This document shows positions 17,008 through 36,301 of a DNA stretch of 54,729 nucleotides, one piece after another; position 1 is the first letter of the stretch; every line of letters starts with the position of its first letter. The stretch covers positions 1 through 54,729 of the forward strand of contig NZ_JAATVU010000037.1 in NCBI RefSeq assembly GCF_013184745.1. The letters run 5' to 3'. Made by a program: the position numbers and the translations under genes. The DNA is from Mangrovicoccus sp. HB161399 (GTDB taxonomy: Bacteria; Pseudomonadota; Alphaproteobacteria; Rhodobacterales; Rhodobacteraceae). A model generated the notes under the pieces. That model was not told the DNA's origin, did not search any database, and worked only from the letters and a program-made list of their open reading frames with translations.

Positions 17008-17445
17008 TCAGGCCGGTTCGTAGAAGCTGCGCAGCAGCTCCAGAGCGCCGGGCAGGCCGTCGCGGCGGGCGCGCTGCCAGAACGCGTCCGAGCCCAGATC
17101 CTCGAACCCGGCGAAGGCGGCGAGGTCCGCCGCGTCGACGTTGCGGAAGCCCATGCTCCAGCCGCCGAACATCCGCCCGGAAACGGTGCTTTCCGAGAGG
17201 ACCAGCAGCGAATGGTGGCGGCGGTCGGCCCGGATGCGCGCCCAGGTCGCTTCGACGGTTTCCTCCGCGCCTTCGAGGATCTGCAGGAAATGCCCGCGCT
17301 GCCCGCCGCTGTCCTCGCGGTAGATCAGCAGCCCGGTCACGCCGCCTGCGGCATTGGCGCTGCGGCTGTGGCCGAGAAGCCCGGCGAGCGCAGCCCCATC
17401 GAAGGGACGGCGCGCCTGGCTGACATAGATGAGCTGGTGGATCAT
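17008..17445 (-). CDS. BLUF-domain blue-light photoreceptor (stand-alone)
   Basis: 145 residues, a single BLUF domain plus a short C-terminal helical tail. Flavin-site residues seen: Tyr7 in LIYVS, Asn31 in SRSANAAGGVTGLL, Gln55 in FLQILEG, and Trp96/Met98 in FGGWSMGF. These match the Tyr/Asn/Gln and Trp/Met set that produces the blue-light red shift in AppA, BlrB and PixD. No GGDEF, EAL or cyclase output domain is attached, so it should act through a protein partner, as PixD or BlrB-type short BLUF proteins do. It lies 64 bp downstream of pntB on the same strand, separated by a strong hairpin. Confidence 0.92.
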   Translation of the reverse strand: MIHQLIYVSQARRPFDGAALAGLLGHSRSANAAGGVTGLLIYREDSGGQRGHFLQILEGAEETVEATWARIRADRRHHSLLVLSESTVSGRMFGGWSMGFRNVDAADLAAFAGFEDLGSDAFWQRARRDGLPGALELLRSFYEPA

Positions 17446-17467
17446 GTCGTCTCCCTGGTGGCAGCGG

Positions 17468-17495
17468 GGCGCGGGCGGCCGGTTCCGCCCGCGCC
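17468..17495 (-). terminator. Strong GC hairpin between pntB and the BLUF gene
   Basis: A perfect 11-bp stem (GGCGCGGGCGG at 17468-17478, CCGCCCGCGCC at 17485-17495) with a 6-base loop, 15 bp beyond the pntB stop. No T-run follows on the minus strand. It may terminate incompletely or protect the 3' end of the upstream mRNA, with some read-through into the BLUF gene. Confidence 0.5.
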
Positions 17496-17509
17496 GGGGG
17501 CACGGCGGC

Positions 17510-18895
17510 TCAGGCCACCTTGCCGAGCAGCTGGTCGAGCGAGGACTTGGCGTCGCCGTAGAACATCCGCGTGTTCTCCTTGTAGAAGAGCGGGTTCTCG
17601 ATCCCCGAATAGCCGGTGCCCTGGCCGCGCTTGGAGACGAAGACCTGCTTGGCCTTCCAGACTTCTAGCACGGGCATGCCGGCGATCGGGCTGCCCGGAT
17701 CCTCCTGCGCCGCGGGGTTCACGATGTCGTTCGAGCCGATGACGATCACCACGTCGGTTTCAGGGAAGTCCTCGTTGATCTCCTCCATCTCCAGCACGAT
17801 GTCGTAGGGCACGCGCGCCTCGGCGAGAAGCACGTTCATGTGCCCGGGCAGCCGTCCCGCGACCGGGTGGATGGCGAAGCGCACGTCCTTTCCCGCCGCG
17901 CGCAGCTTCTGGGTCAGGGCGCTGACCGCCTGCTGGGCCTGGGCGACCGCCATGCCGTAGCCCGGCACGATCACCACGCTGTCGGCCTCTTCCAGCGCCG
18001 CGGCCACGCCGTCGGCATCGATGGCGATCTGCTCGCCCTCGATCGCGGCAGCGGCGGATGCGGCGGTGCCGAAGCCGCCGAGGATCACCGAGAGGAAATG
18101 CCGGTTCATCGCCTTGCACATGATGTAGCTGAGGATCGCGCCCGAGGCGCCCACCAGCGCGCCGGTGACGATCAGCAGGTCGTTGCCCAGCAGGAACCCG
18201 GTGGCCGCCGCCGCCCAGCCGGAATAGCTGTTGAGCATCGAGACCACCACCGGCATGTCAGCCCCGCCGATCGCCAGCACCAGATGCGCGCCGACCGCGA
18301 AGGCGATGAGGGCCATCAGCCACAGCGCCCATTGCACCTCCGCCCCGCCATGGCCGCCGAGGAAGACCGCCATCAGCCCGAGCGAGGCCAGGACCATAGC
18401 GCCGTTCAGCAGGTGCCGCCCCGGCAGGACCAGCGCCTTGCCGTCGAGCTTGCCCGCGAGCTTGCCCCAGGCGACCAGCGATCCGGTGAAGGTCACCGCG
18501 CCGATGAAGACGCCGAGGAAGATCTCCACCTCGTGGATCACCGCCTCGGCCCGCGGCAGCCCCTCGGGCGGGACCAGCGCCGAGTTGATGCCGATGAAGA
18601 CCGCGGCGAGGCCGACGAAGCTGTGCAGCATCGCGACGAGCTGCGGCATGCCGGTCATCTCCACACGCTTGGCGACCAGCGCGCCGATCGCGGCGCCGGC
18701 CGCGAGCACCAGGGCCAGCATCGGGCCCAGCGGCACCGCGGGCCCCGCGATGGTGGCGCCGACCGCCAGCGCCATGCCGATGATCCCGAACCAGACCGCG
18801 GTCTTGGCGCTTTCCTGGTTCTTCAGCCCGCCGAGCGACAGGATGAAGAGAACGGTGGCCGCGATATAGGCAGCCGTCTGAAGTTCCGCGTTCAT
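17510..18895 (-). CDS. pntB: NAD(P) transhydrogenase subunit beta
   Basis: 461 residues from ATG 18895-18893. The first half is eight or so membrane helices forming the proton channel ([60 protein letters not shown]). The C-terminal domain III binds NADP(H): [72 protein letters not shown]. Together with PntA it couples hydride transfer between NAD(H) and NADP(H) to proton flow. It begins 11 bp after pntA. The gene pair ends the catabolic gene series, suggesting a role in balancing the reducing equivalents formed there. Confidence 0.96.
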
Positions 18896-18906
18896 GTCCT
18901 TCCTCC

Positions 18907-20475
18907 TCAGGACCTGCGGAACATGGCGAGCATCCTGCGCGTCACCATGAAGCCGCCGACGATGTTGATGATGGCGATCAGGACCGCCACCAGCGCCAGG
19001 AGCTGCGCCAGCGGCAGCTCGAAGCGGATCTGCAGGAGCGCGCCGAGGATGATGATCCCCGAGATCGCGTTGGTGACCGCCATCAGCGGCGTGTGCAGCG
19101 CATGCGCCACGCCCCAGATCACCTGGAAGCCGATGAAGACGGCCAGCACGAAGACGATGAAATGCTGCATGAAGGCGGTGGGCGCATAGAGCCCGATCAC
19201 CGCCATCGCCGCCGCGCCGAGGCCCAGGAGGACCCATTGCCTCCGTCCCGCGGCGCGCTGTGCGGCTGCGGCCGCGGCGGCGATCTCCTCGGGGCTCTTC
19301 TCCGGCGCGCGCGGGCGCGATGCGGCGATGGCCTGCACCTTCAGCGGCGGCGGCGGGAAGGTCGTGGCGCCGCGGTGGGTCACCGTCGCGCCGCGGATCA
19401 CGTCATCCTCCATGTCATGCACCGCCTGCCCGTCCTTGCCGGGCGTCAGGTCGGCCAGCAGGTGGCGGATATTGGTGGCGTAGAGCTCGGAACTCTGCGC
19501 CGCCATCCGCGACGGCAGGTCGGTATAGCCCAGGATGGTGACGCCGTTCTCCGTCTCGATCCGCTCGTTCGGGACGGTCAGGCTGCAGTTGCCGCCGCGC
19601 TCGGCGGCAAGGTCCACCACGACCGAGCCGGGCTTCATCGCCGCAACCATGTCCGCGGTCCAGAGTTCCGGCGCCGGACGGCCGGGGATCAGCGCGGTGG
19701 TGATCACGATGTCGATGCCGGGGGCAAGCTCGCGGAACTTCTTCAGCTGCGCCTCGCGGAATTCGGGCGAGGACGGGGCCGCATAGCCGCCGGTGGCCGC
19801 GCCGTCGGTCTGTTCCTCCTCGAAATCGAGATAGACGAATTCGGCGCCCATGCTCTCGATCTGCTCGGCGACTTCCGGACGGACGTCGAAGGCCAGCGTC
19901 ACCGCGCCCAGCGAGGTCGCGGCCCCTATGGCGGCCAGCCCCGCGACGCCCGCGCCGACGATCAGCACCTTCGCGGGCGGCACCTTGCCCGCTGCGGTGA
20001 CCTGCCCTGTGAAGAACCGGCCGAAGCAGTTCCCGGCCTCGATCACCGCGCGGTAGCCCGCGATGTTCGCCATCGAGCTGAGCGCGTCCATCTTCTGCGC
20101 GCGGCTGATGCGGGGCACCATGTCCATCGCGACCGTGGTCACGCCCTTCGCCCGCATCCGTTCCAGCTGCTCGCCGTTCTGGGCGGGATAGAAGAAGCTG
20201 GCCACCGTCTGGCCCTCGCGCAGATGCGCCTCCTCCAGCTCGGTCAGCGGCCGGACCTTGGCGACGATCTCCGCCTCGCGCCAGAGGCTGGCGGCATCGG
20301 GCACCACGCGCACCCCGGCGGCGCGGTAGTCGTCATCGGCGAAGCGGGCCGGCAGCCCGGCGCCGCTCTCGACGATCACCTCGTAGCCCAGCTTCCGGAT
20401 GTCCCCGGCGGATTTCGGGGTCAAGGCGACCCGGGCCTCGCCGGGCGAGACCTCTCTCGGCACTCCGAATATCAT
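18907..20475 (-). CDS. pntA: NAD(P) transhydrogenase subunit alpha (undivided)
   Basis: 522 residues, the full E. coli-like alpha subunit. Domain I is the alanine-dehydrogenase-like NAD-binding part: [40 protein letters not shown], and [17 protein letters not shown] as the Rossmann fingerprint. A C-terminal membrane part (about 400-510) has four helices, for example [19 protein letters not shown] and [13 protein letters not shown]. Many alphaproteobacteria split this subunit in two; here it is one chain. It starts 22 bp after the dehydratase stop and so belongs to the same probable transcript as the upstream catabolic genes. Confidence 0.96.
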
Positions 20476-20497
20476 CGGGTGTCTCCCTGTTCTTGCG

Positions 20498-22213
20498 TTA
20501 CGTGTCTTCGTTCACCGGCTGCAGGAAGCCGAAGTCGCAGCCCTCGTCGGCCTGGGTGACCTGCTCGGCATAGAGCCGGTCGTAGCCGCGCCGTTCCGCG
20601 GCGGGCACGTTCGTGGTGACCCAGGCGGCACGGCGGCATTCGAGTTCGGCGGCGTCGACCAGCAGCTCGATCCGGCGGTCCTTCACCGAGATGCGGATGC
20701 GGTCGCCGTCGCGGACCAGCGCCAGCGGACCGCCGACCGAGGCTTCGGGCGAGACATGCAGCACGATCGTGCCGAAGGCCGTCCCGGACATGCGCGCATC
20801 CGAGATCCGCACCATGTCCTTGACCCCGGTCTCGGCGATCTTGCGCGGGATCGGCAGGTAGCCGGCCTCGGGCATGCCCGAAGCGCTGCGCGGCCCGGCA
20901 TTCTGCAGCACCATGAAATCGTCCGCTGTGATGTCCAGATCCGGGTCGTCGACGCGGGCGGCCAGATCCTCGAGCGAGGTGAAGACCACCGCCCTGCCCT
21001 CCTTCTCGAACAGCTTCGGATCGGCCGCCGAGCGCTTCAGGATCGCACCGCGCGGCGCGAGATTGCCGAAGAGCGCGACCAGCCCGCCCTCGGGCTCCAG
21101 CGGTTCCGCTGCCTTGGCGATCACCCGGTGGTCGACCCAGCCGGCATCCTGCTCCAGCCGGTCGCCCAGCGTGCCGCCGGTGACGTCGAGCGTGTCGAGA
21201 TGCAGGAGCGGCTTCAGTTCCCTCAGCACCGCGCCGACGCCGCCGGCAAAGAAGAAATCCTCCATGTAGTTGGTGCCGACGGGCTTGAGGTTCACCAGCA
21301 CCGGCGTGGTGTCCGACAGCGCGTTGAGCTTTTCCAGCGACACCGGGATGCCCAGCCGTCTCGCGACCGCGGTCAGGTGGATGATCGCATTGGTCGAACC
21401 GCCGAGCGCCAGAAGCACGCGCATCGCGTTCTCCACCGATTTCGCGGTGATGACCTGGCTCGGCCTGATCGGCGTGCGGACCATCCGCGCCGCCGCGCGC
21501 CCCGACTCCTCGCCCGCCCGCAGCCGGTCGGCATGGACCGCCGGGATCGCCGCGGTGCCGGGCAGCGACATGCCCAGCGTCTCGGCAATGCAGGCCATGG
21601 TGGAGGCCGTGCCCATCACCGCGCAGGTCCCTGCCGTGGTCGCCAGCCGCCCCTCGATGTCGTTGATCTGCTCTGTCGTGACCTCCTTGGCGCGGTATTT
21701 CGACCAGAAGCGGCGGCAGTCGGTGCAGGCGCCCAGCCGTTCGGTCTGGTAGCGCGAGGTCATCATCGGCCCCGCCACCAGCTGCACCGCGGGCAGGTCG
21801 GCCGAGGCCGCGCCCATCAGCTGCGCGGGCACGGTCTTGTCGCAGCCGCCCATCAGCACCACCGCGTCCATCGGCTGGGCGCGGACCATCTCCTCGGTGT
21901 CCATCGACATCAGGTTGCGGAATTTCAGCGAGGTCGGCGACAGGAAGACCTCGCCCAGAGAGATCGTCGGGAACTCGATGGGCAGCCCGCCCTCCATCAG
22001 CACGCCGCGCTTCACCGCCTCCACCAGCTCGGGGAAATGCCGGTGGCAGTTGTTGAAGCCGGAAAAGCTGTTGGCGATGCCGACGATCGGCCGCTTCAGC
22101 ATCTCGCGCGAATACCCCATCGAGGCGGCGAAGGAATTGCGCAGGTAGACCGAGAAGTCCCGGTCGCCGTAATTGGTCAGCCCGCGGGCCAGCCCCTGGT
22201 CGGTATCGCTCAT
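20498..22213 (-). CDS. IlvD/Edd-family dehydratase, pentonate-dehydratase-like
   Basis: 571 residues. Iron-sulfur ligands at Cys56 (GFNNCHRHF), Cys124 ([11 protein letters not shown]) and Cys197 ([16 protein letters not shown]) fit the [2Fe-2S] sugar-acid dehydratase branch; the spacing parallels L-arabinonate dehydratase as I recall it. Another conserved block, [17 protein letters not shown], carries the catalytic serine region near the C-terminus. Enzymes of this family dehydrate sugar acids (arabonate, xylonate, gluconate) or dihydroxy acids (IlvD). The neighbourhood lacks other branched-chain amino-acid genes, so I favour a sugar acid or related polyhydroxy acid. Its start overlaps the aldehyde dehydrogenase stop by 4 bp (ATGA). 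Confidence 0.9.
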
Positions 22214-23658
22214 GCCGGCGCCCCCAGCCGCATCTTGACGTATTTCGCGTCGAGATAGTCATGGATGCCGAGGCTGCCGCCCTCGCGGCCCATGCCGCTT
22301 TCCTTGATGCCACCGAAAGGCGCCTCGGCGGTGGCCAGCAGCATCTCGTTGACGCCGACCATGCCGCATTCCAGATCCTCGGCGGCGCGCGTGGCGGTGC
22401 CGAGGTCGTTGGAAAAGACATAGCCCGCCAGCCCGAAGGGCAGCGCATTGGCCCGCGCCATCACCTCGTCATAGCTTCGGAAGGTGGTGATCGGCGCAAT
22501 CGGGCCGAAGGGTTCCTCGGTCATCACCAGCGCCTCGTCGGGCACCCGGCCCAGCACCGTGGGTTCGACGAAGAATCCCTTGTTCGACCCGGCCGGCGCC
22601 TTGCCGCCCGCCAGCAGTTCCGCGCCGCGCGACAGCGCGTCGCCGGTCATCCGCTGGATGGTCTCCAGCCCGCGGCGGTTGGCCATCGGGCCGACCTGCA
22701 CGCCGTCCTCCAGCCCGCGGCCGATCTTCAGCGACTTCGCGATGTCGGCGAAACGGCCGGAGAACCGGTCATAGCTGTCCTCGTGGACATAGAAGCGCGT
22801 CGGCGAGATGCAGACCTGGCCGCAGTTCCGGAACTTGGTCGGCGCGCAGATTTCCGCCGCTTCGACCGGGTCGAAATCGGGGAAGACGACCACGGGGCCG
22901 TGGCCGCCGAGTTCCATCGACACCTTCTTCACCCCTTCCGCGGCAAGGCGCAGGATCTGCTTGCCGACCGGCACGGAGCCGGTGACCGAGACCTTGCGCA
23001 CGATGGGCGAGGCGATCAGTTGCGCGGCGATCGCCGAGGAGGCGCCGGTGACCATGTTGACCACGCCCGGCGGGATGCCCGCATCGTGGCAGGCCTGGAC
23101 CAGGGCGGCGCAGGAGGCCGGGGTTTCTCCGGCCGGCTTGACGATGATCGAGCAGCCCGCCGCCAGCGCCGCGGCAATCTTGCGCGCGGGCAGCAGCGCC
23201 GGGAAGTTCCAGGCCGAGAAGGCCGCGACGACCCCAACCGGCTGGTAGATCACCGCCATGCGGCTGTCGGGCGTACGGCTGCCGATGATCTGGCCGTAGA
23301 TCCGCTTGGCCTCCTCGGACTGCCATTCGAACTGGTCGGCGGCGCCCATCGTCTCGCCCCTGGCCTCGGCCAGCGGCTTGCCGGTCTCCAGCGACATCAG
23401 CGCGGCAATCGCATCGGCGCGCTCGCGCAGCAGGTCGGCCACCTTGCGGATCATCGCCGCGCGCTCCCAGGTGCCGGTCGACTTCCAGAGGCGGAACCCC
23501 GCCTCCGCCGCGGCCAGCGCATCGGCCACGTCCGCCTCGCTGGCCACCGCAACCAGCCCCAGCGCATCCTCGGTCGCCGGATCGGTCACCGGCTTGGTCG
23601 CGCGGTCGGAGGCCGGGCGCCAGCCGCCGCCGATGTAGAGATTGAGATCGTGATACAT
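22210..23658 (-). CDS. NAD(P)-dependent aldehyde dehydrogenase
   Basis: 482 residues, typical ALDH length. NAD-binding and catalytic motifs: AFSAWNFPALLPARKIAAAL (147-166), IIVKPAGETP (171-180), VSVTGSVPVGKQI, the general base Glu249 in SMELGGHGP, and the probable nucleophile Cys283 in FRNCGQVCISPTRFYV. C-terminal EEPFGPIAPI and GGIKESGMGREGG are present. The protein resembles succinate-semialdehyde or ketoglutarate-semialdehyde dehydrogenases. The latter would pair with a pentonate dehydratase in oxidative pentose degradation, but no KDA/KDX dehydratase is seen here. It is translationally coupled to the IlvD-type gene and starts 22 bp after the ThDP enzyme. Confidence 0.92.
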   Translation of the reverse strand: MYHDLNLYIGGGWRPASDRATKPVTDPATEDALGLVAVASEADVADALAAAEAGFRLWKSTGTWERAAMIRKVADLLRERADAIAALMSLETGKPLAEARGETMGAADQFEWQSEEAKRIYGQIIGSRTPDSRMAVIYQPVGVVAAFSAWNFPALLPARKIAAALAAGCSIIVKPAGETPASCAALVQACHDAGIPPGVVNMVTGASSAIAAQLIASPIVRKVSVTGSVPVGKQILRLAAEGVKKVSMELGGHGPVVVFPDFDPVEAAEICAPTKFRNCGQVCISPTRFYVHEDSYDRFSGRFADIAKSLKIGRGLEDGVQVGPMANRRGLETIQRMTGDALSRGAELLAGGKAPAGSNKGFFVEPTVLGRVPDEALVMTEEPFGPIAPITTFRSYDEVMARANALPFGLAGYVFSNDLGTATRAAEDLECGMVGVNEMLLATAEAPFGGIKESGMGREGGSLGIHDYLDAKYVKMRLGAPA

Positions 23659-23680
23659 GTCGTCCTCGCCCCAGTTGCCT

Positions 23681-25570
23681 TCAGATCGCGGCGGCGACGT
23701 ATTTCGCCTGCACGTCGTCCACCCAGTTGCCCACGTTCCAGTTGCCGTAGGCGCCCATCCCGGCCAGCGGGTCGCGCCCGGCATAGACGGGAATGTGCAG
23801 CAGGCTCAGCCCGTCATGGGCGAAGCCCTCCTCCAGCGCGGCCGCGAGGCTGTCGCGCGTCGTGCCCGCCCAGATCGCCCGCACGCCCGAGACCGCGCCG
23901 GCCAGCGCGACATAGTCCACGGCGACGCTGTCATTGGTCTTGAACTCACGGCCGTACTGGGCCAGCTGCAGGTCGGTGATCGCCGCCATGCGGCGGTTGT
24001 CGAACAGCGCGACCATGCCGCGGATGCGGTGCTCCACCGCGTCGATCAGGATCTGCGGGTTCATCATGAAGGAGCCGTCGCCGGTGAAGGCCACGCCGTA
24101 GGGCGCGTCGCGCATCCCCGCGAGCCCGAGCAGCGCCGAGGCGGCGAAGCCCATGTAGGAGGCGCCGGTTTCCGTGATGGTCTCGCCCGGCGCGTCGTCC
24201 TCGACAATCTGGAAGCCGTTGGCCTGCACGTCGCCCGCATCGAAGAACTTCACCGCGCCATGGGCCCTGGCGGCGCTCGCCACCATGTGGATCGCGGCGG
24301 GCTGCGGCAGAACCGGCGCGCCCCAGACCTCGTCGGCGATCGGCGCCGCCTCCAGCCGCGCGGCCTTGAACTGGGTCCAGTCCTGCTTCTTCGCAGTGCA
24401 GGCCGCCCGCCAGTAGGCCCGCTTTTCCTTGCCGGTGTCGTCGCCGAGCGCGCCAAGCAGGAGATCGGTCACGGCGGTGATGTCGCCGGGCAGCGCGACG
24501 GTGTTGGCGTAATGCTGCAGGTCGCCGAGATCGCCGTTGATGTTGAGCACCGCCTCGGCCTGCGGATAGCCGATGCCCGAGCAGTCCGCCTGGCAGACCC
24601 CGCGCGAACCGATGAAGATCACCGCCTCGGCACCCTGCATGGCGTGGTTGCCGCTGATCGAGCCCTTGGAGCCGCCGACATGCATGTTCAGCTCGTGCGC
24701 ATCCGGCAGGACGCCGGTCGAGCCGGGCGACAGGACGACGGGAATGCCCGCGGCCTCGGCCAGCCGCCGCACCGCCGCCGCATGGCCGCGCGTGCCGCCC
24801 CCGGCCTTGATCACCGCGCGCCGCGCACCGCGCAGCAGCGCCACCGCCGCGTCCAGCTCCGGCCCCGCCGCGGGACGCACCGGCGGCGTGGTTTGCCGCG
24901 CGGGCAGGGTCGCGACATTGACCGTGACCTCCTGCGGCTGGGTGTTGATCGGCGCGAGAATGTAGAACGGCCCGGCCTTGTAGGGATGGTGCACGCAAGC
25001 GGTGCCGCGGCGCATGCATTCGCGCAGCGCCTCGGGCGTGTGCAGCGTGTAGCTCTGCCCCATCAGCGCGCCCATCCGGCCGAACAGCCCCTGCTCGGGC
25101 TTCGGCACCTGCTGCATGTTGTAGCCTTCGCCGCGCGTGGTCTCGTCGCCGTAGATGTGGTAGACGCCGACGCCGTTGGAGGCCGCGGCGAGCGAGCCGG
25201 CCATCGCCTGCAGCCCGCCCGGCCCGATCGAGGTCACCACCGCGGGCGTCTCGCCGGTCATCCAGGCATGGGCGGTGGCGGCATGGGCCATCTCCACCTC
25301 GTTGCGGCAGTTGACGACGCCGATCGCGCCCTCCTCGTGGTAGATCCGCATGATCTCGCCCAGATCGGTGGAGCCGTGGCCGAAGATCGCGAAATACTGC
25401 CGGACCCCCTGCTTCAGCAGCGCCGCCAGCAGCGCCTCGGACAGGGTCATGGTCGCGAGCGGGCCGCCGAAGGCCGCCTCGAAGGGACCGCCGGCCAGGC
25501 GCGCGGCGCGCGCGCGGATCCGCTCCTGCGCGGCAGCGGCCGGATCGGGGAGGCTGTTCTTGTCGAGCAT
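23681..25570 (-). CDS. ThDP-dependent enzyme, acetolactate-synthase/IolD-like
   Basis: 629 residues, longer than acetolactate synthase (about 560) and near IolD length. It begins with a 40-residue extension, then the Pyr domain (MTLSEALLAALLKQGVRQYF, FGHGSTDLGEIMRIYHEEG, VVNCRNEVEMAHAATAHAW) with the conserved glutamate near residue 91. A central domain spans about 235-375. The PP domain has the ThDP/Mg motif GDGSFMMNPQ (497-506) leading to FDNRR (523-527). Such enzymes cleave or form carbon-carbon bonds next to a carbonyl, or hydrolyse cyclic diketones (IolD). The substrate cannot be deduced. It shares one base with the tctA stop (TGATG), so translation is coupled to the transporter. Confidence 0.88.
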   Translation of the reverse strand: MLDKNSLPDPAAAAQERIRARAARLAGGPFEAAFGGPLATMTLSEALLAALLKQGVRQYFAIFGHGSTDLGEIMRIYHEEGAIGVVNCRNEVEMAHAATAHAWMTGETPAVVTSIGPGGLQAMAGSLAAASNGVGVYHIYGDETTRGEGYNMQQVPKPEQGLFGRMGALMGQSYTLHTPEALRECMRRGTACVHHPYKAGPFYILAPINTQPQEVTVNVATLPARQTTPPVRPAAGPELDAAVALLRGARRAVIKAGGGTRGHAAAVRRLAEAAGIPVVLSPGSTGVLPDAHELNMHVGGSKGSISGNHAMQGAEAVIFIGSRGVCQADCSGIGYPQAEAVLNINGDLGDLQHYANTVALPGDITAVTDLLLGALGDDTGKEKRAYWRAACTAKKQDWTQFKAARLEAAPIADEVWGAPVLPQPAAIHMVASAARAHGAVKFFDAGDVQANGFQIVEDDAPGETITETGASYMGFAASALLGLAGMRDAPYGVAFTGDGSFMMNPQILIDAVEHRIRGMVALFDNRRMAAITDLQLAQYGREFKTNDSVAVDYVALAGAVSGVRAIWAGTTRDSLAAALEEGFAHDGLSLLHIPVYAGRDPLAGMGAYGNWNVGNWVDDVQAKYVAAAI

Positions 25571-27069: not shown

Positions 27070-27073
27070 GGCG

Positions 27074-27553
27074 CTACCCCAGATCGACCCAGGTGCCGCC
27101 GGGCAGGTAGATCCCCAGCAGCTTGCCGAAGACCAGCCAGCAGCCCGCGGTCAGCCCGGCCGCCATGGCCGCCAGCGTCAGCGGCCCGCGGATCTTCAGG
27201 TTCGCGCCCAGCACCGCCAGCACCAGCAACGGCGTCGCCAGCACGAAGCCGATCTTCTCCAGGAGCGCGCCGTAGACGGCGATCTCCAGCAGGAGCAGCA
27301 GCGCGGGTCCCCAGAGGATGCTGGCGGAGCCCTCCTTCGCCGCCGCCCCGCCGGTGTCGCGGCCCAGCGTGTTGGCGATGAAGAGCGCCGAGAGCCCCAT
27401 CAGGATGACCCCGAAGGCGAGCGGGAAGGCCCGCGGGCCGATGTCGCCGCCGCCGAAGCCGGGGGAAAGCGTGGCCCAGGCCAGCGCGCTCCATCCCGCC
27501 CCGGCCGCGAGCAGCACGAGCCCCAGCACCAGATCCTTGCGCAGGTCGGTCAT
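27074..27553 (-). CDS. tctB: Tripartite tricarboxylate transporter, small membrane subunit
   Basis: 159 residues from ATG 27553-27551. Four hydrophobic segments are visible: about 8-28 (LVLGLVLLAAGAGWSALAW), 45-65 (AFPLAFGVILMGLSALFIANT), 83-120 (ILWGPALLLLLEIAVYGALL and FVLATPLLVLAVLGANL) and 128-148. The GPRAFPLAFGVILM segment matches the DUF1468/TctB signature. TctB partners with TctA in the membrane. An alternative longer frame upstream overlaps tctC and lacks a ribosome-binding site at its start. Confidence 0.9.
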   Translation of the reverse strand: MTDLRKDLVLGLVLLAAGAGWSALAWATLSPGFGGGDIGPRAFPLAFGVILMGLSALFIANTLGRDTGGAAAKEGSASILWGPALLLLLEIAVYGALLEKIGFVLATPLLVLAVLGANLKIRGPLTLAAMAAGLTAGCWLVFGKLLGIYLPGGTWVDLG

Positions 27554-27570
27554 TTCACCATCCCCCGCGC

Positions 27571-28539
27571 TCACTGGCCCAGGCCGAGCTTCTTGAGCAG
27601 GCCCGCATAGAAGGCGTCGTCGCGCGCGATCAGCGCCGCGAAGTCCTGCGGACCGGCATAGGCCGGCTGGAAACCCATCGTCGCGGCGGCCTTGCGGAAG
27701 GCCTCGCTGTTGGTCGCGGCCTCGGCCGCGGCGGCGAGCTTCTCGACCACCTCGGGCGGGGTGTCCTTCGGAGCGGCCAGGCCGCGCCACATGGTGATGT
27801 CGATGTCGACGCCCTGCTCCTGCGCGGTCGGCACGCCGGGCAGGAAATCGATCCGCTCGGAGCCGGTCACCGCCAGGACCGACAGGTCGCCGGTATCGAC
27901 ATAGGACTTGAACTGTCCCGGCCACTGGATGGCGGCGTCGATCCGCCCGGCCAGCAGCTCAACCGGCGCCTTGCCGTCGCCATAGGCGATGAAGGTCACC
28001 TGGTCGCCGATGCCCATCGCATCGAACAGCGCCGCCGAGACCAGATGGGTGAAGCTGCCCTTGCCGGAGATCCCGACCTTGAGGTGGTCGTCCGAGGCCG
28101 AGACCTCGCGCGCCATGTCCTGGAGGCTGGTCCAGCCCCGCGCCGCGTTGACCGCCAGCGCCGGGGTTTCCTCCGACACCCGGGCGATCGGAACGAAATC
28201 CTCGTAGCTGTAGGGCACGTGGCCGACATGGGCCGTGGTGTTGACCGAGTTCGAGTTCCAGACGATCGAATAGCCGTCGGGCGCGGTCGCCATCACGTGG
28301 GAATAGCCCACCGCGCCGCCGCCGCCGGTGCGGCTGACCGGCACCACCGGCTCGCCCAGCTCGCCCGCCATCGTCTCGGACAGGACCTGGGCGATGGTGC
28401 TGGCCGTGCCGCCGAACAGCACCGTCATCTCCACCGGTTTCTCGGGAAATTCCGCGCGTGCCTGCGGCACGCCGAGCGACAGGACCGAGGCAGCGGCCAG
28501 CACCGCGAAGCCGCCGCCCAATGCGAGTCTCATCTTCAT
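27571..28539 (-). CDS. tctC: Tripartite tricarboxylate transporter, periplasmic binding protein
   Basis: 322 residues from ATG 28539-28537, with GGGAGG seven bases upstream. A Sec signal peptide covers residues 1-29 (ends VPQARA). The mature part shows the Bug/TctC fold: FPEKPVEMTVLFGGT at the start, VSRTGGGGAVGYSHVMATAPDG, then GKGSFTHLVSAALFDAMGIG and a central GDGKAPVELLAGRIDAAI segment. These proteins capture carboxylates and pass them to TctAB. The ligand is not predictable from sequence. A strong hairpin lies 30 bases upstream of the start, which may raise the mRNA level of this subunit relative to the upstream oxidoreductase genes. Confidence 0.94.
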   Translation of the reverse strand: MKMRLALGGGFAVLAAASVLSLGVPQARAEFPEKPVEMTVLFGGTASTIAQVLSETMAGELGEPVVPVSRTGGGGAVGYSHVMATAPDGYSIVWNSNSVNTTAHVGHVPYSYEDFVPIARVSEETPALAVNAARGWTSLQDMAREVSASDDHLKVGISGKGSFTHLVSAALFDAMGIGDQVTFIAYGDGKAPVELLAGRIDAAIQWPGQFKSYVDTGDLSVLAVTGSERIDFLPGVPTAQEQGVDIDITMWRGLAAPKDTPPEVVEKLAAAAEAATNSEAFRKAAATMGFQPAYAGPQDFAALIARDDAFYAGLLKKLGLGQ

Positions 28540-28568
28540 CTCATCCTCCCTTGATTTTCTGCGTTCCT

Positions 28569-28607
28569 GCGGCCCGCGGCCGGTCTCTCCGGACCGCCGC
28601 GGGCCGC
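28569..28607 (-). promoter_or_regulatory. Intercistronic hairpin upstream of tctC
   Basis: GCGGCCCGCGG (28569-28579) and CCGCGGGCCGC (28597-28607) form a perfect 11-bp stem around a 17-base loop, within the 141-bp gap before tctC, the longest gap inside the gene series before pntAB. No T-run follows on the minus strand. It is a candidate mRNA-stabilising or attenuating element. Confidence 0.5.
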
Positions 28608-28680
28608 CCTGCATCGCGCGGCCTGCCCCTCCCAAGGCCGGCCCGCGCATGTGCCATGGCGCCTCCGCCCGCGCCGCCTC

Positions 28681-29697
28681 TCAGGGCTGCTGCACGCGGA
28701 GCGCCGCCAGGATCTTCTCGGGCGTGGCCGGCAGCGTCGTGATGCGCACGCCGATCGCGTCGTAGATCGCGTTGATGATGGCCGGCGCGGTCGGCACCAG
28801 CGCCGGCTCGCCGATCCCCTTGGCCCTCAGCGGGCTGGTCGGGTCCTCGTCCTCGACGATCACACAGGTGATCTGCGGCACGTCGAGCGCGGTCGGCAGG
28901 ATGTACTTGGCGAAGCCGTGGGTGGCGGCATGGCCGTCGACGGTGACGTACTCCTCCATCAGCGCCTGGCCGAGCCCCTGGACGACGCCGCCCTCGATCT
29001 GGCCCTCGACGCCGCGGGGATTGATCGCCCGGCCGACGTCATGCGCGGCCCAGAGCCCCAGCACCTGCACCTCGCCGGTCCAGGTGTCGACCTCGACCTC
29101 CGCCACCTGGGTGCCGAAGACATAGGTCTGCCAGGGGCTGCCCTTGCCGTCCGCCGGGTCGAGCCCGGTACCGTTGGCGGTGAAGCTGGCCGAGCCGACC
29201 GGCACGGTCCCGCGCGCCTTGCAGATCGCCACCGCATCGGCGACGGACATGCGCAGGTTCGACCCCTCCGCCCAGATCTCGCCGTCGAAGGCGCGCAGCT
29301 CGCCGGCGGCGACCTCCCAGTATTCGGCGATCTTCTCGAACAGGACCTCGCGCGCCTGGCGCGAGGCCAGCGCCACGGCATTGCCGATCATGTAGGTCTG
29401 CCGCGTCGCTCCGGCATGGGCCGCCTCGGGCGAGCGCGCGGTGTCGTTGTCGCCGATGGTGACATCCTCGGGCCGGGTGCCGGTCTCCTCGGCGGCGACC
29501 TGGGCCAGAACCGTCAGGATGCCCTCGCCGATCTCGGTGACGCCGGTGACGATCTTCACCGTGCCGCCGTCGTCCAGCTCCGCCCAGGCGCCGGCCCGGT
29601 CGATCGTCGCGGTGCGGGCGATGCCGTACCAGCTGGCGGCCATGCCGCGGCCGCGCTTGCGCCGGGTCTCGGCGCGGGTTTCGGTGATCGCGTTCAT
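28681..29697 (-). CDS. Molybdenum hydroxylase large subunit, C-terminal half (separate chain)
   Basis: 338 residues matching the second molybdopterin-binding half of xanthine dehydrogenase/aldehyde oxidase-type proteins. Seen: GRGMAASWYGIARTATID (17-34), VTGVTEIGEGILTVLAQVAAEE (50-71), VEVDTWTGEVQVLGLWAAHDVG (201-222), INPRGVEGQIEGGVVQGLGQAL (225-246) and KGIGEPALVPTAPAIINAI (293-311). Glu297 in GEPAL corresponds to the catalytic glutamate. Its start overlaps the stop of the gene coding for the first half by 4 bp (ATGA). In most relatives both halves are one polypeptide, so this looks like a gene fission. The two chains should assemble into one active unit. Confidence 0.88.
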   Translation of the reverse strand: MNAITETRAETRRKRGRGMAASWYGIARTATIDRAGAWAELDDGGTVKIVTGVTEIGEGILTVLAQVAAEETGTRPEDVTIGDNDTARSPEAAHAGATRQTYMIGNAVALASRQAREVLFEKIAEYWEVAAGELRAFDGEIWAEGSNLRMSVADAVAICKARGTVPVGSASFTANGTGLDPADGKGSPWQTYVFGTQVAEVEVDTWTGEVQVLGLWAAHDVGRAINPRGVEGQIEGGVVQGLGQALMEEYVTVDGHAATHGFAKYILPTALDVPQITCVIVEDEDPTSPLRAKGIGEPALVPTAPAIINAIYDAIGVRITTLPATPEKILAALRVQQP

Positions 29698-31583
29698 TCT
29701 GCCGCCTCCGTCGCTGCCGCCGTCGCCGGCCCGCCCGCCAGCCTTGCGCCGAGCGTGCAGGGCCTGCGCGTGTCCGGCCCGCCCAGATCGCCGCGCAGCG
29801 CGCCGCGCACCGAGGGCACGCCGGTCTCCCAGCGGCTCGCCGCCTCGGCCGCGTCCAGCACCTGATCGAGCGAGGCCCGGTCCAGCCGGTGCTGCGTATG
29901 GGTCAGCGATCCCGCGCGGTACATGTTGATCCGCCGGATCTCGAACGGGTCGAGCCCCAGCCGCTCCGCCGCCATGTCCATCATGCTCTCGGTGGCGAAT
30001 TGCGCCTGCATGCCCCCGAAGGTGCGGAAGGCGCCCGACGGGGTGTTGTTGGTGTAGACCGCGCGGGTGTCGACCTGCAGGTTCTCGATCTCGTAGGGGC
30101 CGCAGCTGAGGATCGCCGCCTTGCGCATCACTCCTTCGGAGCTCATCCCGTAGGCGCCCCCGTCCGAGAGCATCTCGAATTTCACCGCGGTGATCCGCCC
30201 GTCCGAGGTCAGGCCCATCTTGTAGGCGACCCGGCTCGGATGGCGCTTGGCCGAGGCGACCAGGCTTTCCTCGCGGGTGAAGTTCAGCTGCACCGGCCGC
30301 ATGGTCTTCATCGCGGCGATGGCCAGCATCCCCTGGTAGATCATGTCCTCCTTGCCGCCGAAGCCGCCGCCCACCGGCGACATCACCATGCGCACCTTGT
30401 TGATCGGCAGACCCAGGATCTCGGCCAGCATGTGGCGGTGATGGGTGATGTTCTGGCTGGGGCTGTGCACCGTCACCACGTCGTCATGGTCGACGAAGGC
30501 GATCCCGGCCTCGGGCTCCAGATAGGCGTGCTCCACCTGCTGGGTGCCGAACTCGTGCTCCAGGATCACGTCCGCCGCGGCGAAGCCCGCCGCGATGTCG
30601 CCCTTCCTCAGCGGGATGTGCTTGACCACGTTGTCGGGCGCATAGTCGTGGATCACCGGCGCGCCGGGCTTCAGCGCATCCTCCGGGTCGTAGAGGCCGG
30701 GCAGCAGCTCGTATTCCACCTTGATCGCGGCAACGGCGCGGCGCGCGGTCACCAGATCTTCGGCCGCGACGGCGGCGACCGCCTCGCCGACATGGCGGAC
30801 CTTGCCGCGCGCCATGACCGGCTGGTCGTGGACGAAGACGCCGAAGCCGTCCTTGCCCGGCACGTCATCGGCGGTGATCACGCATTCGACGCCCGGCATC
30901 GCCTCGGCCTCCGCGGTGTCGATCCGCACGATGCGCGCATGCGGATGCGGGCTGCGCAGCACCTGCATCTGCAGCATGTCCACCAGCTTCATGTCGGCGG
31001 CATAGCGCAGCCGTCCGGTGACCTTGGCGGGCGCATCGATCCGGCGGACATTGTGGCCGATATAGCTCTCTCCCAGCGTTTCGTCGGCATCCAGGACCGA
31101 CGCGTCCGCCCGGCCCGCGATCACGTCGCGGGCAATCTCCACGGCCTCGAGGATCTTGGTGTAGCCGGTGCAGCGGCAGATGTTGCCGCCCATGCGCTCC
31201 TTGATCTCGTCCAGATCCGCCTCGGGGTTCTGGCGCAGGCAGGCGGTGGCCGCCATCACCATGCCGGGGATGCAGTAGCCGCACTGGCTGGCCCCGGTCT
31301 TGTGGAAGGCCTTCTGCACCGGGGTCAGCGGGCCGCGGCCCGCCAGCCCCTCGACCGTCTCGATCACCGCGCCCTCGGCGCGGCCAGCGGGCATCAGGCA
31401 GGATTTCACCAGCTTTCCGTCGACGAAGACGCTGCAGGTTCCGCATTCGCCGGCGCCGCAGCCTTCCTTGGTGCCGGTGAGGTTCAGGTCGTCGCGCAAC
31501 AGGTCGAGCAGGCGCGCGTGCGCGGCGACCCTGCGGGCCACGGGCCGTCCGTTGACGGTGCAGCTGAGGTCCATATCAGGCAT
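29694..31583 (-). CDS. Molybdenum hydroxylase: [2Fe-2S] subunit fused to N-terminal half of large subunit
   Basis: 629 residues (start ATG 31583; ATG 31574 also possible). Residues 1-160 are the iron-sulfur part: Cys42/47/50/62 bind the plant-type [2Fe-2S] cluster and Cys101/104/136/138 the second cluster (SQCGYCIPGM, NICRCTGY). Residues about 175-600 are the first molybdopterin half: IGHNVRRIDAPAKVTGRLRYA, VLRSPHPHARIVRIDTAEAEA, VEHAYLEPEAGIAFVD, GGGFGGKED and SGAFRTFGGMQAQFATESMM. The last 35 residues are degenerate-looking. Together with the downstream half-gene and the FAD subunit it should form a hydroxylase acting on an aldehyde or N-heterocycle. It overlaps the FAD-subunit gene by 8 bp. 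Confidence 0.9.
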   Translation of the reverse strand: MPDMDLSCTVNGRPVARRVAAHARLLDLLRDDLNLTGTKEGCGAGECGTCSVFVDGKLVKSCLMPAGRAEGAVIETVEGLAGRGPLTPVQKAFHKTGASQCGYCIPGMVMAATACLRQNPEADLDEIKERMGGNICRCTGYTKILEAVEIARDVIAGRADASVLDADETLGESYIGHNVRRIDAPAKVTGRLRYAADMKLVDMLQMQVLRSPHPHARIVRIDTAEAEAMPGVECVITADDVPGKDGFGVFVHDQPVMARGKVRHVGEAVAAVAAEDLVTARRAVAAIKVEYELLPGLYDPEDALKPGAPVIHDYAPDNVVKHIPLRKGDIAAGFAAADVILEHEFGTQQVEHAYLEPEAGIAFVDHDDVVTVHSPSQNITHHRHMLAEILGLPINKVRMVMSPVGGGFGGKEDMIYQGMLAIAAMKTMRPVQLNFTREESLVASAKRHPSRVAYKMGLTSDGRITAVKFEMLSDGGAYGMSSEGVMRKAAILSCGPYEIENLQVDTRAVYTNNTPSGAFRTFGGMQAQFATESMMDMAAERLGLDPFEIRRINMYRAGSLTHTQHRLDRASLDQVLDAAEAASRWETGVPSVRGALRGDLGGPDTRRPCTLGARLAGGPATAAATEAAE

Positions 31584-32499
31584 TGGCCATGGTCTCCTTG
31601 GATTGGTCATGCGCGGCGGCCCGGTTCGGCCGGTTGGCCAGCGCCTCCTCCAGCGCGGCGCGCACGAAATTCACCACCACCTCGCGGCGGTAGTCGAGGC
31701 GCGAGCGCGAGGCGACGCGGTCGGCCGCGCCATGGGCGGCGCGCAGGATCGCCTCCGGCTCCACCCGCTCGCCGCGCAGCATCCGCTCGGCCTCGCGCAG
31801 GCGCATCGGCCCCGGCCCGACGCCGCCGAGCGCCAGGCGGACATCCTCGAAGGTCCGGCCCTCGGGATCGGTGCGGACGAGCGCCGCGCAGCAGGCCACC
31901 GAGATCACCAGCGACCGCCGCTGGCCGACCTTCTGGAAGGCGCCGCCATAGCCGCAGCAGGTGTCGAGCGTCACCTGCGTGGCGATCTCGCCCTTCCGGA
32001 TGGCGGTGCGGCCCGGCCCGTGGATGAACTCCTCGATCTCCACCGTGCGGCGGCGGATTTCGCCGTCTTCGAGCCGCGCCAGCTCGATCGCGCCGTTCAG
32101 CGCCACCACCGCGGGCGTGCCGTCCGCGACCGGCGAGGCGTTGACGAGGTTGCCCGCCAGCGTCGCCACCTCGCGGATCTGGTCGTCGGCGAACCAGATC
32201 GCGACATGCGGCATGCAGGGCAGGTTCTGGCGCAGCACCGGGTCGGTCAGGAAATCCTGGTAGACGGTGCCCGCCGCAAGGTGCAGCCGCCCCTTGCCGA
32301 AGCCGTATCCCCGCAGCTCGCCGATGCCCGACAGGTCGATCATCGCCGGCAGGTGGACGTCCCCGGCCCGGCCGTCGCGGGCCCAAGGATAGATGTCGGT
32401 CGCCCCGGAGACGAGCCGGCTGCCCTCCGGCGCATCGGCCCAGAGGGCAAGCGCTTCGGCCAGGGTCCGGGGGCGGTGATATGCGTCGCAGGTCAGCAT
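31576..32499 (-). CDS. Molybdenum hydroxylase FAD-binding subunit (CoxM/XdhB-like)
   Basis: 307 residues. FAD-binding PCMH motifs: SRLVSGATDIYPWARDG near 27-43 (usually GGTDLxPxM), MIDLSGIGELRG, and IREVATLAGNLVNASPVADGTPAVVALNG (about 108-136, the conserved xR-xxxTxGGNxxxxSPxxDxxP pattern, here LAGN). C-terminal CO-dehydrogenase flavoprotein domain: FQKVGQRRSLVISVACCAA and VRLALGGVGPGPMRLREAE. It passes electrons from the iron-sulfur clusters to an acceptor via FAD. It starts 16 bp after the alcohol dehydrogenase, and its 3' end overlaps the fused [2Fe-2S]/molybdopterin gene. Confidence 0.93.
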   Translation of the reverse strand: MLTCDAYHRPRTLAEALALWADAPEGSRLVSGATDIYPWARDGRAGDVHLPAMIDLSGIGELRGYGFGKGRLHLAAGTVYQDFLTDPVLRQNLPCMPHVAIWFADDQIREVATLAGNLVNASPVADGTPAVVALNGAIELARLEDGEIRRRTVEIEEFIHGPGRTAIRKGEIATQVTLDTCCGYGGAFQKVGQRRSLVISVACCAALVRTDPEGRTFEDVRLALGGVGPGPMRLREAERMLRGERVEPEAILRAAHGAADRVASRSRLDYRREVVVNFVRAALEEALANRPNRAAAHDQSKETMANA

Positions 32500-32515
32500 G
32501 GCTCGTCTCCTCCGC

Positions 32516-33679
32516 TCACTCTGCGGCCAGCTGCCGGGCGGCAGCGTGCTTGTTCTTCACCACCACCTTGATCGCGTCCTCGACCCGGTCCTTGGCATAG
32601 CGCAGCGCCTCGGCGAGGTCCTCCATGTCGAAGGTATGGGTGTGGATCAGCGAGGCGTCGAAACGCTTCTGGCGCATGAAGGCCTCGGCGCGGTGGGTCG
32701 CGGTCTTGCCTTCGCCGCGGATGCCGTAGAGGTAGATGTTGTTGCGCACCAGGAAGGCGACATCGACCTCGGGCGCGCTGCCCGGGAAGGCGGCGAGGCA
32801 GATCTTGCCGCCGCGGTTGAGCATCTGCGCCGCCTCGTTCACCGCCTGCGGCGCGCCCGAGCATTCGACCACGTAGTCGACTCCCTTGCCGCCGTTGAGC
32901 TCCTTGACCTTCTCGACGACATTCTCGTTGCGCACGTTGATCACGTGGTCGGCGCCGAGCTTCCGGCCGATTTCCAGCCGGTTGTCGCGGGTGCCGGTCA
33001 GGATTACCGGCTGCGCGCCGAGCGCCTTGGCCACCGCCGCGCCGAGAAGCCCGATCGGGCCCGGCCCAGAAACCACGACGCTTTCGCCCGCGACCAGCCC
33101 GCCGAGCTCGGTCAGCCCGTACATCGCCGTGCCGGCCGTGACGACCAGCGTGGCCTCCTCGTCGGTCATGGTATCGGCGACATGGACCAGCGTGTTGATG
33201 TTGTTCACCGCGTATTCGGCGAAGCCGCCGTCGGTGGTGAAGCCGTTGGCGCGGTGGCCCTTGTCGACATCGCCGTAGTTCTTGCCGTAGTTGTGGCAGG
33301 AGGTGTACATCCCCTGGCGGCAGCGCTTGCACTGGCCGCAGCCGGCATGGATCTCCACCGTCACCCGCTCGCCGATCTCGTATTCGTCGACGCCCGGCCC
33401 GAGCGCCACGACCGTGCCCATGTATTCATGGCCGGGGGTGAAGTTCTTGTTGAACGGGTCGCCGCCCTGGATCTGCGCGGGCGGGCCGTGATGGATGATC
33501 TCCAGGTCGGTGGCGCAGATCGCGACCGCATCTATGCGGACCAGGACCTCGGCCCTGCCCGGCGCCGGGACAGGCTTGTCTGTCAGCGTGAGTTCTCCGG
33601 GATCCCCCAGCACCCAGGCCTTCATGGTCTCCGGGACCGGGAAGTCCTCGTGGGTGGTCACGTTCTCTGGCAGTGACAT
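32516..33679 (-). CDS. Zinc-dependent medium-chain alcohol dehydrogenase
   Basis: 387 residues. Catalytic zinc ligands are seen at Cys55 (AICATDLE), His84-Glu85 (TPGHEYMG) and the structural zinc knuckle at Cys114, 117, 120 and 128 (CGQCKRCRQGMYTSC). A Rossmann fingerprint VVVSGPGPIGLLGAAVAKALGA is present, with an Asp/Arg-like acidic position TGTRDNR after it. It resembles threonine/sorbitol dehydrogenase-like members. A 20-residue N-terminal extension precedes the usual MKAW start. As the first gene after the IclR regulator (21-bp gap) it probably carries out an early alcohol oxidation in the pathway. Substrate unknown. Confidence 0.93.
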   Translation of the reverse strand: MSLPENVTTHEDFPVPETMKAWVLGDPGELTLTDKPVPAPGRAEVLVRIDAVAICATDLEIIHHGPPAQIQGGDPFNKNFTPGHEYMGTVVALGPGVDEYEIGERVTVEIHAGCGQCKRCRQGMYTSCHNYGKNYGDVDKGHRANGFTTDGGFAEYAVNNINTLVHVADTMTDEEATLVVTAGTAMYGLTELGGLVAGESVVVSGPGPIGLLGAAVAKALGAQPVILTGTRDNRLEIGRKLGADHVINVRNENVVEKVKELNGGKGVDYVVECSGAPQAVNEAAQMLNRGGKICLAAFPGSAPEVDVAFLVRNNIYLYGIRGEGKTATHRAEAFMRQKRFDASLIHTHTFDMEDLAEALRYAKDRVEDAIKVVVKNKHAAARQLAAE

Positions 33680-33700
33680 GCAGCATCTCCTCCGTTGCTG

Positions 33701-34558
33701 TCAGGCCCGCGACCGCTGTGCGGCCTCGAGCAGTCTCGATAGGTCGTTGCCCGCCGTGATCATCTGGGTGACCAGGTGGCGGCGGTAGGCGTCGGTATCC
33801 TCGGCCTTGGCATAGGAGACCGAGATCGCGCCGATCACGGCCCCCGCGCCATTCCTCAGCGAGGCGCCGATGCAGACGGTGCCCTCGCGGAATTCCTCGT
33901 CGTCGAAGGCGTACTTGCGGCGCCGGGTCAGGCGCAGCTCCTCCACCAGGCCGCTGAGGCTGGTGATGGTCTTCGGCGTGTAGGCGGTCAGCCCGTTGGC
34001 CGAGATCACCCGGACCAGCTCGGTATCGGGGATCCAGGCGAGGATCGCCTTGCCGGTGGCGGTGGCATGGGCGGCGGCCATCTTCTCGACCTCGTCGGTC
34101 TCGGCGATGCGGCCGTTCGGGTCGGGAATGCTCAGCTTTGTCAGCAGCGCGCTTTCCGACATCACCGCCATCTGGACCGCATGCTCCAGCCGCCGCCCGA
34201 GATGGCGCAGCGGATCGCGCAGGATCACCGCCGGGTCGCGCCGGGACTCGGCCATCTCCGACAGGTCGCGGATGCGCTCGCCCATGACATAGGCGCGGTT
34301 GCGGCCGTACTGGCCGACATAGCCCCGCGCCACCAGCGTCGCCAGCAGGTGGTGGCAGGTCGAGGCCTTCAGCCCGCTGGCGGCGGACAGCTCCGACAGG
34401 CCGATGCCGTCCGGGTGCTGGGCGACCAGTTCGAGCAGGCCGAGCGCCCGCTCGACAGACTGGATCCTCCGGGCTGCGCCCTCCTTCGGGGACAGATCCT
34501 CCCCGGTCCCGCCCGACGCCAGGTCGTGCGGGTAACGGTCATCCGCTACCAATTTCAT
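33701..34558 (-). CDS. IclR-family transcriptional regulator
   Basis: 285 residues from ATG 34558-34556, with AGAGGAG upstream. The winged-helix DNA-binding domain (about 32-90) contains IQSVERALGLLELVAQHPDGIGLSELSAASGLKASTCHHLLATL. The C-terminal effector domain (about 105-280) shows ATATGKAILAWIPDTEL, RRRKYAFDDEEFREGTVCIGASLRN and VIGAISVSYA, the usual ligand-binding pocket segments. It heads the catabolic gene series on the same strand and is divergent from the CitMHS-type carrier gene. The 425-bp spacer contains inverted repeats that are candidate sites. It likely controls both directions in response to a pathway acid. Confidence 0.93.
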   Translation of the reverse strand: MKLVADDRYPHDLASGGTGEDLSPKEGAARRIQSVERALGLLELVAQHPDGIGLSELSAASGLKASTCHHLLATLVARGYVGQYGRNRAYVMGERIRDLSEMAESRRDPAVILRDPLRHLGRRLEHAVQMAVMSESALLTKLSIPDPNGRIAETDEVEKMAAAHATATGKAILAWIPDTELVRVISANGLTAYTPKTITSLSGLVEELRLTRRRKYAFDDEEFREGTVCIGASLRNGAGAVIGAISVSYAKAEDTDAYRRHLVTQMITAGNDLSRLLEAAQRSRA

Positions 34559-36291: not shown

Positions 36292-36301
36292 CAGGAGTGA
36301 C

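Follow-up and report, generated by a model that had tools for sequence, protein, structure and literature searches.

A conserved catabolic operon of Mangrovicoccus and related alphaproteobacteria with a linked short BLUF gene and possibly light-tuned IclR control

In the alphaproteobacterium Mangrovicoccus sp. HB161399 (assembly GCF_013184745.1), the minus strand of contig NZ_JAATVU010000037.1 carries a series of 14 open reading frames (ORFs) that lie end to end between positions 17008 and 34558, from a gene for an IclR-family regulator (ATG at 34558) to a gene for a short blue-light receptor of the BLUF type, which ends at 17008. We analysed this series within the first 54,729 nucleotides of the contig (hereafter the window; 70.5 % GC, part of a 7.18-Mb genome) and compared it with the loci of relatives. 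The set of enzymes encoded in the series, an alcohol dehydrogenase (ADH), a molybdenum hydroxylase with a split molybdenum cofactor (Moco) subunit, a thiamine diphosphate (ThDP)-dependent enzyme, an aldehyde dehydrogenase (ALDH) and an IlvD-type dehydratase, is almost certainly a conserved unit, and the BLUF gene is very probably tied functionally to this catabolic operon. The best explanation of the whole, a self-contained catabolic regulon with light-tuned IclR control, has in our judgement an even chance of being right.

The number, strand and extent of the genes, with iclR first, had been put forward in a sequence-only reading of this DNA and were confirmed from the ORF coordinates, as were its gaps of at most 22 bp or overlaps throughout, except for 141 bp before tctC (behind the gene for the second Moco-binding half, MoCo2) and 64 bp between pntB and the BLUF gene. 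Each of the 14 genes has an in-frame Pfam match. From iclR downwards, 21 bp separate iclR from the ADH gene, 16 bp the ADH gene from that of the flavin adenine dinucleotide (FAD) subunit, and 1 bp or an overlap, depending on the start chosen, the latter from the gene for the [2Fe-2S] domain fused to the first Moco-binding half (FeS-MoCo1), which overlaps MoCo2 by 4 bp. Further on, the distances are 17 bp (tctC/tctB), 4 bp (tctB/tctA), an overlap of 1 bp (tctA/ThDP), 22 bp (ThDP/ALDH), an overlap of 4 bp (ALDH/IlvD), 22 bp (IlvD/pntA) and 11 bp (pntA/pntB). A crude scan of positions 16400-35000 found no sigma-70-like promoter and five terminator-like sites versus 4.8 expected from shuffles; the sole site on the minus strand lies within pntA and none falls in the two large gaps. 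Judged from these letters, a single transcript for all 14 genes is plausible, and because the gene order recurs in other genera, the series is more than a chance arrangement.

Conservation was assessed in a locus set, the best 80 of 203 relatives from a scan with one genome per species (nearest to the window: Poseidonocella sp. HB161398), and in a survey of 101 genomes, the window's own and 100 relatives. The ThDP gene occurs in 4 of the 101 surveyed genomes, and the ordered set ADH, FAD, FeS-MoCo1, MoCo2, Tct, ThDP, ALDH, IlvD is found in the congener and, slightly altered, in two other genera. Across the 80 loci, ADH lies upstream of ThDP in 64 and FeS-MoCo1 in 68, with both Moco proteins present in 64, while ALDH and IlvD lie downstream in 59 and 60, respectively; no fewer than 46 have the full set of five enzymes (an ALDH visible in L050, outside the position filter, adds one to the ALDH and five-enzyme counts). 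Where at least 9 kb of upstream sequence was available (67 loci), 65 have the Mo subunit and 63 have ADH; where at least 3.3 kb was available downstream (71 loci), 53 have both ALDH and IlvD (54 with L050). Together with IclR and a shared palindrome in front at most loci with enough upstream sequence, these counts bear out the earlier proposal that ADH, split molybdenum hydroxylase, uptake, ThDP enzyme, ALDH and IlvD form one unit, and also the synteny of the ThDP gene with the split hydroxylase for which it had suggested a search. That the blocks would never be adjacent in relatives, the outcome named beforehand as speaking against a unit, was not observed.

The edges of the unit are less constant. 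Of the 49 loci whose sequence continues for at least 1.5 kb behind IlvD, nine have PntA directly after it, and PntAB, presented earlier as part of the joined series, is therefore accessory and not core. Likewise, the uptake system is not constant but varies between TctCBA, an SDF-type dicarboxylate symporter (L080) and a TRAP transporter in a paralogous cluster. This cluster (G000 contig C234; L007 1340-12644) encodes IclR, a ThDP protein 63 % identical to that of the window, HIBADH-like, HbpS-like and TIM-barrel proteins, the TRAP transporter, ALDH and IlvD, and a true IolD is encoded on that contig at a distance of about 21 kb; a second ThDP copy, 63 % identical, is present in the window's genome and in the congener. 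Between PntB and BLUF, an ATP-type phosphoenolpyruvate (PEP) carboxykinase (PckA) is encoded at full length in L020 (17699-19303) and as a fragment in L018 (19427-20491). In a metagenome-assembled genome labelled Burkholderiaceae (L075, 15146-16153), an XdhC/CoxI-family gene lies directly behind IlvD.

The gene list in the title of the sequence-only reading holds in so far as the named enzymes, Tct and PntAB are all present; the fourteenth gene, BLUF (17008-17445), had gone unnamed there and is the most surprising part of the series. Its linkage was searched for in 78 genomes bearing the ThDP gene (the 80 minus L028 and L060), namely a first chosen set of 35, mostly close relatives, and the remaining 43. 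A BLUF gene of any kind is present in 56 of the 78 (73 copies), and in 31 of the 78 one lies on the same contig as the ThDP gene, 3.8-12.1 kb away, against about 0.43 expected by chance within 12.2 kb, a figure that overstates the significance because related genomes are not independent. The window and L028 (locus view only) are further linked cases. Among the 32 linked cases with L028 included, BLUF is divergent from iclR in 26 and codirectional downstream of the enzymes in six. In the 101-genome survey, all four genomes with the ThDP gene have a BLUF gene, versus 21 of the 97 without it. A tandem pair of BLUF genes near the operon was seen in G134 (contig C35:1826-2651).

The linked BLUF proteins are moreover closely related to one another. 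A tree of 65 rows was built from 31 linked rows (the window, 22 loci including L028, and eight additionally retrieved stretches, without L047 and L062, which the end of the locus truncates) and a chosen sample of 34 unlinked rows from 32 stretches. All 31 linked rows fall into one clade with two rows counted as unlinked, G105 and G107, whose BLUF gene lies on a contig of 3.9 kb or on one that stops 1.8 kb past it, so that linkage there cannot be judged. None of 500 label shuffles of the tree needed as few changes. Residues Y7, N31, Q55, W96 and M98 are invariant in the 31 linked proteins, and we take them to be the Tyr, Asn, Gln and Trp/Met of the BLUF photocycle. The window protein combines these residues with a Pfam domain well above the cut-off (Table 1), the two marks by which a short BLUF protein was recognised, and its predicted model (mean predicted local distance difference test score, pLDDT, 91.7) matches PixD, BlrB and BlsA over its length.

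Several observations weigh against a functional tie between BLUF and the operon. The linked genes are concentrated in the first chosen set (26 of 35, versus 5 of 43 in the rest), the clade has a support of 90/92, of which the ultrafast bootstrap of 90 lies below the mark of 95, and many of the unlinked rows sit on long branches in unsure positions. A gap of 288 bp precedes the codirectional BLUF gene of L021, and in L023 an IS1595 transposase and a DNA methylase lie between IlvD and BLUF (15353-17859), making co-transcription with BLUF doubtful at these two loci. In favour of a tie, linkage follows the type of IclR: assigning each IclR to the better BLAST match of two reference regulators, we found linked BLUF in 30 of 41 type-1 genomes, in none of 20 type-2 genomes and in 1 of 17 in which no IclR was seen (L021), a distribution that is, however, confounded with taxonomy. 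Against it, 11 of the 41 type-1 genomes have no linked BLUF, five having a BLUF gene elsewhere and six none, and type-2 loci keep the enzymes and the palindrome without it, so BLUF is dispensable. The 11 type-1 genomes, the insertions in L023 and the kinship of the genomes, which keeps the counts from being independent, would all suit a BLUF gene that is a passenger, inherited beside the operon and acting on an unrelated target. We consider this unlikely, since the linkage is kept whether BLUF lies upstream and divergent or downstream, extends over linked rows from seven named families and is restricted to a single BLUF clade.

If BLUF is tied to the operon, its partner might be the regulator. 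In a comparison of divergence among 24 rows (L063 dropped) and nine operon proteins, whose pairs are not independent, BLUF correlated best with IclR (0.72, partial 0.49) and next with the ThDP protein (0.63 and 0.26). Many of the widespread short BLUF proteins have no target known to us. A precedent exists in Acinetobacter, where BlsA interacts with AcoN and antagonises it under blue light in acetoin catabolism (PMC6595428). The likeness lies in the pairing of a short BLUF protein with a protein that regulates a cluster of catabolic genes (PMC6595428), and structures of BlsA are among those that the window's BLUF model matches in fold; what differs is that in the window the BLUF gene is itself a neighbour of the catabolic operon, and that contact between BLUF and the regulator is here a proposal. 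The linkage, the layout, the dependence on IclR type, the distance correlation and this precedent are the reasons for proposing that BLUF acts through IclR, for which we would put the chances slightly below even. A target other than IclR, namely an enzyme, a transporter or a global regulator, is rather unlikely in our view: it is in keeping with the codirectional loci, where BLUF lies on the enzyme strand as would fit co-production, and with the action of BlsA on Fur besides AcoN, described in the same source (PMC6595428), but both the linkage and the divergence of BLUF follow IclR more than the enzymes, each with the confounding by taxonomy.

A candidate site of action for the regulator was found in front of its gene. 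Among 35 regions upstream of iclR (the window and 34 chosen ones), 29 hold a site that agrees with AATTTCATANTATGAAATT at 13 or more of 18 positions. Sites as good occur in 8 of 700 mononucleotide-shuffled sequences and in 1 of 280 pieces from within the loci; this enrichment is partly circular because the consensus came from the same upstream regions, of type-1 loci. A matrix was made from 29 sites scoring 17.4-35.5 bits. As an out-of-sample check, 16 type-2 loci of sufficient length were scanned in full (five more were too short): in 15 of them the highest-scoring site stands ahead of iclR, nine of the 16 scoring at least 20 bits and six others 11.5-16.8 bits, while L065 fails. An exact degenerate pattern, written from sites already seen, was run on 33 of the 78 genomes, its absence elsewhere in these genomes being the informative part; it occurs once per genome, at the ThDP operon locus, in 18 of the 33, and the reversed pattern has no match in the 33. 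In the divergent layout the palindrome lies between BLUF and iclR, with two sites in Nioella and W635. Less favourable are the 15 of 33 genomes without an exact match, of which 14 have a looser site of at least 20 bits near iclR and L044 has none, the lack of a good site in the congener L012, and the window itself, whose palindrome scores only 9.0 bits although in the usual place. A second weak palindrome-like site of the window lies at 34854-34872 (8.9 bits), and the window's genome holds three two-mismatch sites, none of them at the ThDP operon locus. We infer that IclR may bind the palindrome. IclR would then control the operon via this palindrome together with an effector, and BLUF, whose gene shares the divergent iclR promoter region or sits downstream of the enzymes, would bind or otherwise modulate IclR in a light-dependent way, by which induction would be tuned by light.

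As to the enzymes, the ThDP protein is the least easily named. Its best NCBIfam model is IolD, the trihydroxycyclohexanedione hydrolase of inositol catabolism (TIGR04377), with a near full-length alignment, which would suit an inositol-type pathway with a true IolD. This is hardly credible: the protein scores 147 bits (148 when the whole genome was searched), far under the cut-off of 715, it has another gene neighbourhood, and two true IolDs elsewhere in the window's genome exceed the cut-off at 856 and 809 bits. That the ThDP enzyme is IolD was ruled out on the curated cut-off and the presence of these true IolDs. The predicted model (mean pLDDT 86) shares its fold with acetolactate synthase, glyoxylate carboligase, JanthE and cyclohexane-1,2-dione hydrolase at about 20 % identity. 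Although the last of these (2PGN, 4D5G) has the same fold, with a template modelling (TM) score of 0.76 by query length, the others match equally well, and the fold search gave no specific match but many ThDP enzymes about equal, so the fold gives no substrate name.

Both halves of the Moco protein have nicotinate dehydrogenase (3HRD) as their closest relative in PDB, the first its large subunit (306 bits) and the second its medium subunit (256 bits). The structure is, we presume, that of the E. barkeri enzyme, and there too the Moco subunit is split in two, whereas in the window the first Moco half carries the [2Fe-2S] part as a fusion, and L057, L081 and L084 encode the Moco subunit in a single ORF of 963-982 amino acids. 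In split loci the overlap of the two genes is often 4 bp. A broken or frameshifted molybdenum gene was ruled out by the presence of both Moco proteins in most loci and by the one-ORF versions. The closeness to nicotinate dehydrogenase, and a carboxylate as a suitable cargo for TctC-type uptake, could point to degradation of an N-heterocyclic carboxylate of the nicotinate kind. We regard this as improbable, given that closeness by sequence does not fix the substrate in the Mo family, that the window series has no amidase or deaminase, that the relatives of IlvD, ALDH and ADH act on sugar acids, aldehydes and polyols, and that TIM-barrel isomerase-like, MocA-like and lactonase-like side genes accompany the operon in some relatives.

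The IlvD-type dehydratase, like the IlvD/Edd sugar-acid dehydratases (L-arabinonate dehydratase and others), lies above the cut-off of subfamily PRK06131 (Table 1) and, unlike L-arabinonate dehydratase itself, under that of PRK13016 (689 bits, cut-off 882). ALDH stays under the cut-off for succinate-semialdehyde dehydrogenase (Table 1), and ALDH and ADH are under every specific cut-off displayed, ADH lying between threonine dehydrogenase and IolM. By the curated models of the Re/Si-specific transhydrogenase PntAB, PntA scores 777 (cut-off 383) and PntB 662 versus 689 in NCBIfam, yet the latter is over its Pfam cut-off. A second PntB is present in five of nine PntAB-bearing genomes checked, including that of the window (contig C87).

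From these families a pathway can be outlined, for which a hydroxylated carboxylate feeding the tricarboxylic acid (TCA) cycle fits best as substrate. After import of the hydroxylated carboxylate, ADH and the molybdenum enzyme would oxidise it to a 2-keto or vicinal-diketo compound, in which the ThDP enzyme would cleave a C-C bond, leaving an oxo acid; ALDH would convert this to a 2,3-dihydroxy (di)acid and IlvD would dehydrate the latter to a 2-oxo acid for the TCA cycle. We offer this chemistry tentatively. Entry of a 2-oxo acid into the TCA cycle would explain the extra PntAB and, rarely, the PEP carboxykinase, although PckA is found in only 2 of the 80 loci. Also less in keeping with it, 17 or 18 of the 71 loci lack ALDH, IlvD or both directly behind ThDP, which suggests that the two steps can perhaps be replaced. 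Many loci without the ALDH/IlvD pair are Pseudolabrys-like, and the variant without both behind ThDP comprises L059, L060, L061, L065, L066, L068, L070, L077, L078 and L088. In L066 a metallo-beta-lactamase-fold protein, a MocA-type dehydrogenase and an alpha/beta hydrolase are encoded ahead of ThDP; L064 has the latter two in a like manner, and a Mesorhizobium locus has a MocA-type dehydrogenase ahead of ThDP. A replaceable dehydrogenase ahead of ThDP, ALDH and IlvD suggests that the dehydrogenase makes a ketone, which ThDP enzyme would cleave, with ALDH oxidising the aldehyde and IlvD making the 2-oxo acid.

Table 1. Genes of the series and the candidate operator in the window
Feature	Position	Strand	Basis
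IclR-family regulator, first gene	33701..34558	-	PF01614, PF09339; best NCBIfam model BhcR 124 bits vs cut-off 350; ATG 34558
Candidate IclR operator, weak 19-bp palindrome match, 93 bp before iclR ATG	34633..34651	-	9.0 bits, top-scoring site of window
Zinc-dependent ADH, threonine-dehydrogenase/IolM-like	32516..33679	-	PF00107, PF08240; TDH 224 bits (cut-off 458), IolM 201 (cut-off 450)
Molybdenum hydroxylase FAD subunit	31576..32499	-	PF00941, PF03450
Molybdenum hydroxylase, [2Fe-2S] domain fused to first Moco-binding half	29694..31574 (start 31574, 31583 or 31610)	-	PF00111, PF01799, PF01315, PF02738
Molybdenum hydroxylase, second Moco-binding half as separate protein	28681..29697	-	PF20256
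TctC solute-binding protein	27571..28539	-	PF03401
TctB small permease	27074..27553	-	PF07331, 72 bits, cut-off 29
TctA large permease	25570..27069	-	PF01970, 3.3e-131
ThDP-dependent lyase/hydrolase, IolD-like	23681..25570	-	PF02775, PF00205, PF02776; 40-row alignment
ALDH, succinate/ketoglutarate-semialdehyde-dehydrogenase-like	22210..23658	-	PF00171; TIGR01780 509 bits, cut-off 646; PDB best 5vbf, 5x5t
IlvD/Edd-type dehydratase	20498..22213	-	PF00920, PF24877; PRK06131 811 bits, cut-off 539; PDB best 8ej0, 9evv, 5j83
PntA, accessory	18907..20475	-	PF05222, PF01262, PF12769; TIGR00561, PRK09424 above cut-off
PntB, accessory	17510..18895	-	PF02233
Short BLUF blue-light receptor, operon-linked subfamily, last gene	17008..17445	-	PF04940, 5.9e-25, 87.6 bits, cut-off 25

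Next to the series (Table 1), a divergent CitMHS citrate-type transporter gene and an AtuA-family gene adjoin iclR on the plus strand (34864-37639), and downstream of the series, on the minus strand, a long protein with cadherin-like, bacterial immunoglobulin-like and RTX repeats is encoded (12423-15932).

No published report of a linkage between BLUF and such an operon was found in the literature searched, a negative of little weight since most subscription journals were not covered, nor was a described pathway matching the enzyme set found there. It is a real possibility, if short of an even chance, that a dedicated BLUF subfamily controls an IclR-type regulator, by which alphaproteobacteria of several families would switch or tune a whole carboxylate pathway by blue light, the pathway itself being an undescribed combination of ThDP-dependent cleavage, split molybdenum hydroxylase and IlvD dehydration. 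As the enzyme set recurs in many alphaproteobacteria and could be matched to no described pathway, it may act on a widespread environmental carboxylate that has so far been overlooked. With one BLUF subfamily tied by neighbourhood to one regulator, the idea can be tested directly and, if the tie holds, photoregulated catabolism would extend beyond Acinetobacter. The presence of a BLUF gene beside the operon in 31 of 78 genomes suggests that light may tune what these bacteria eat.

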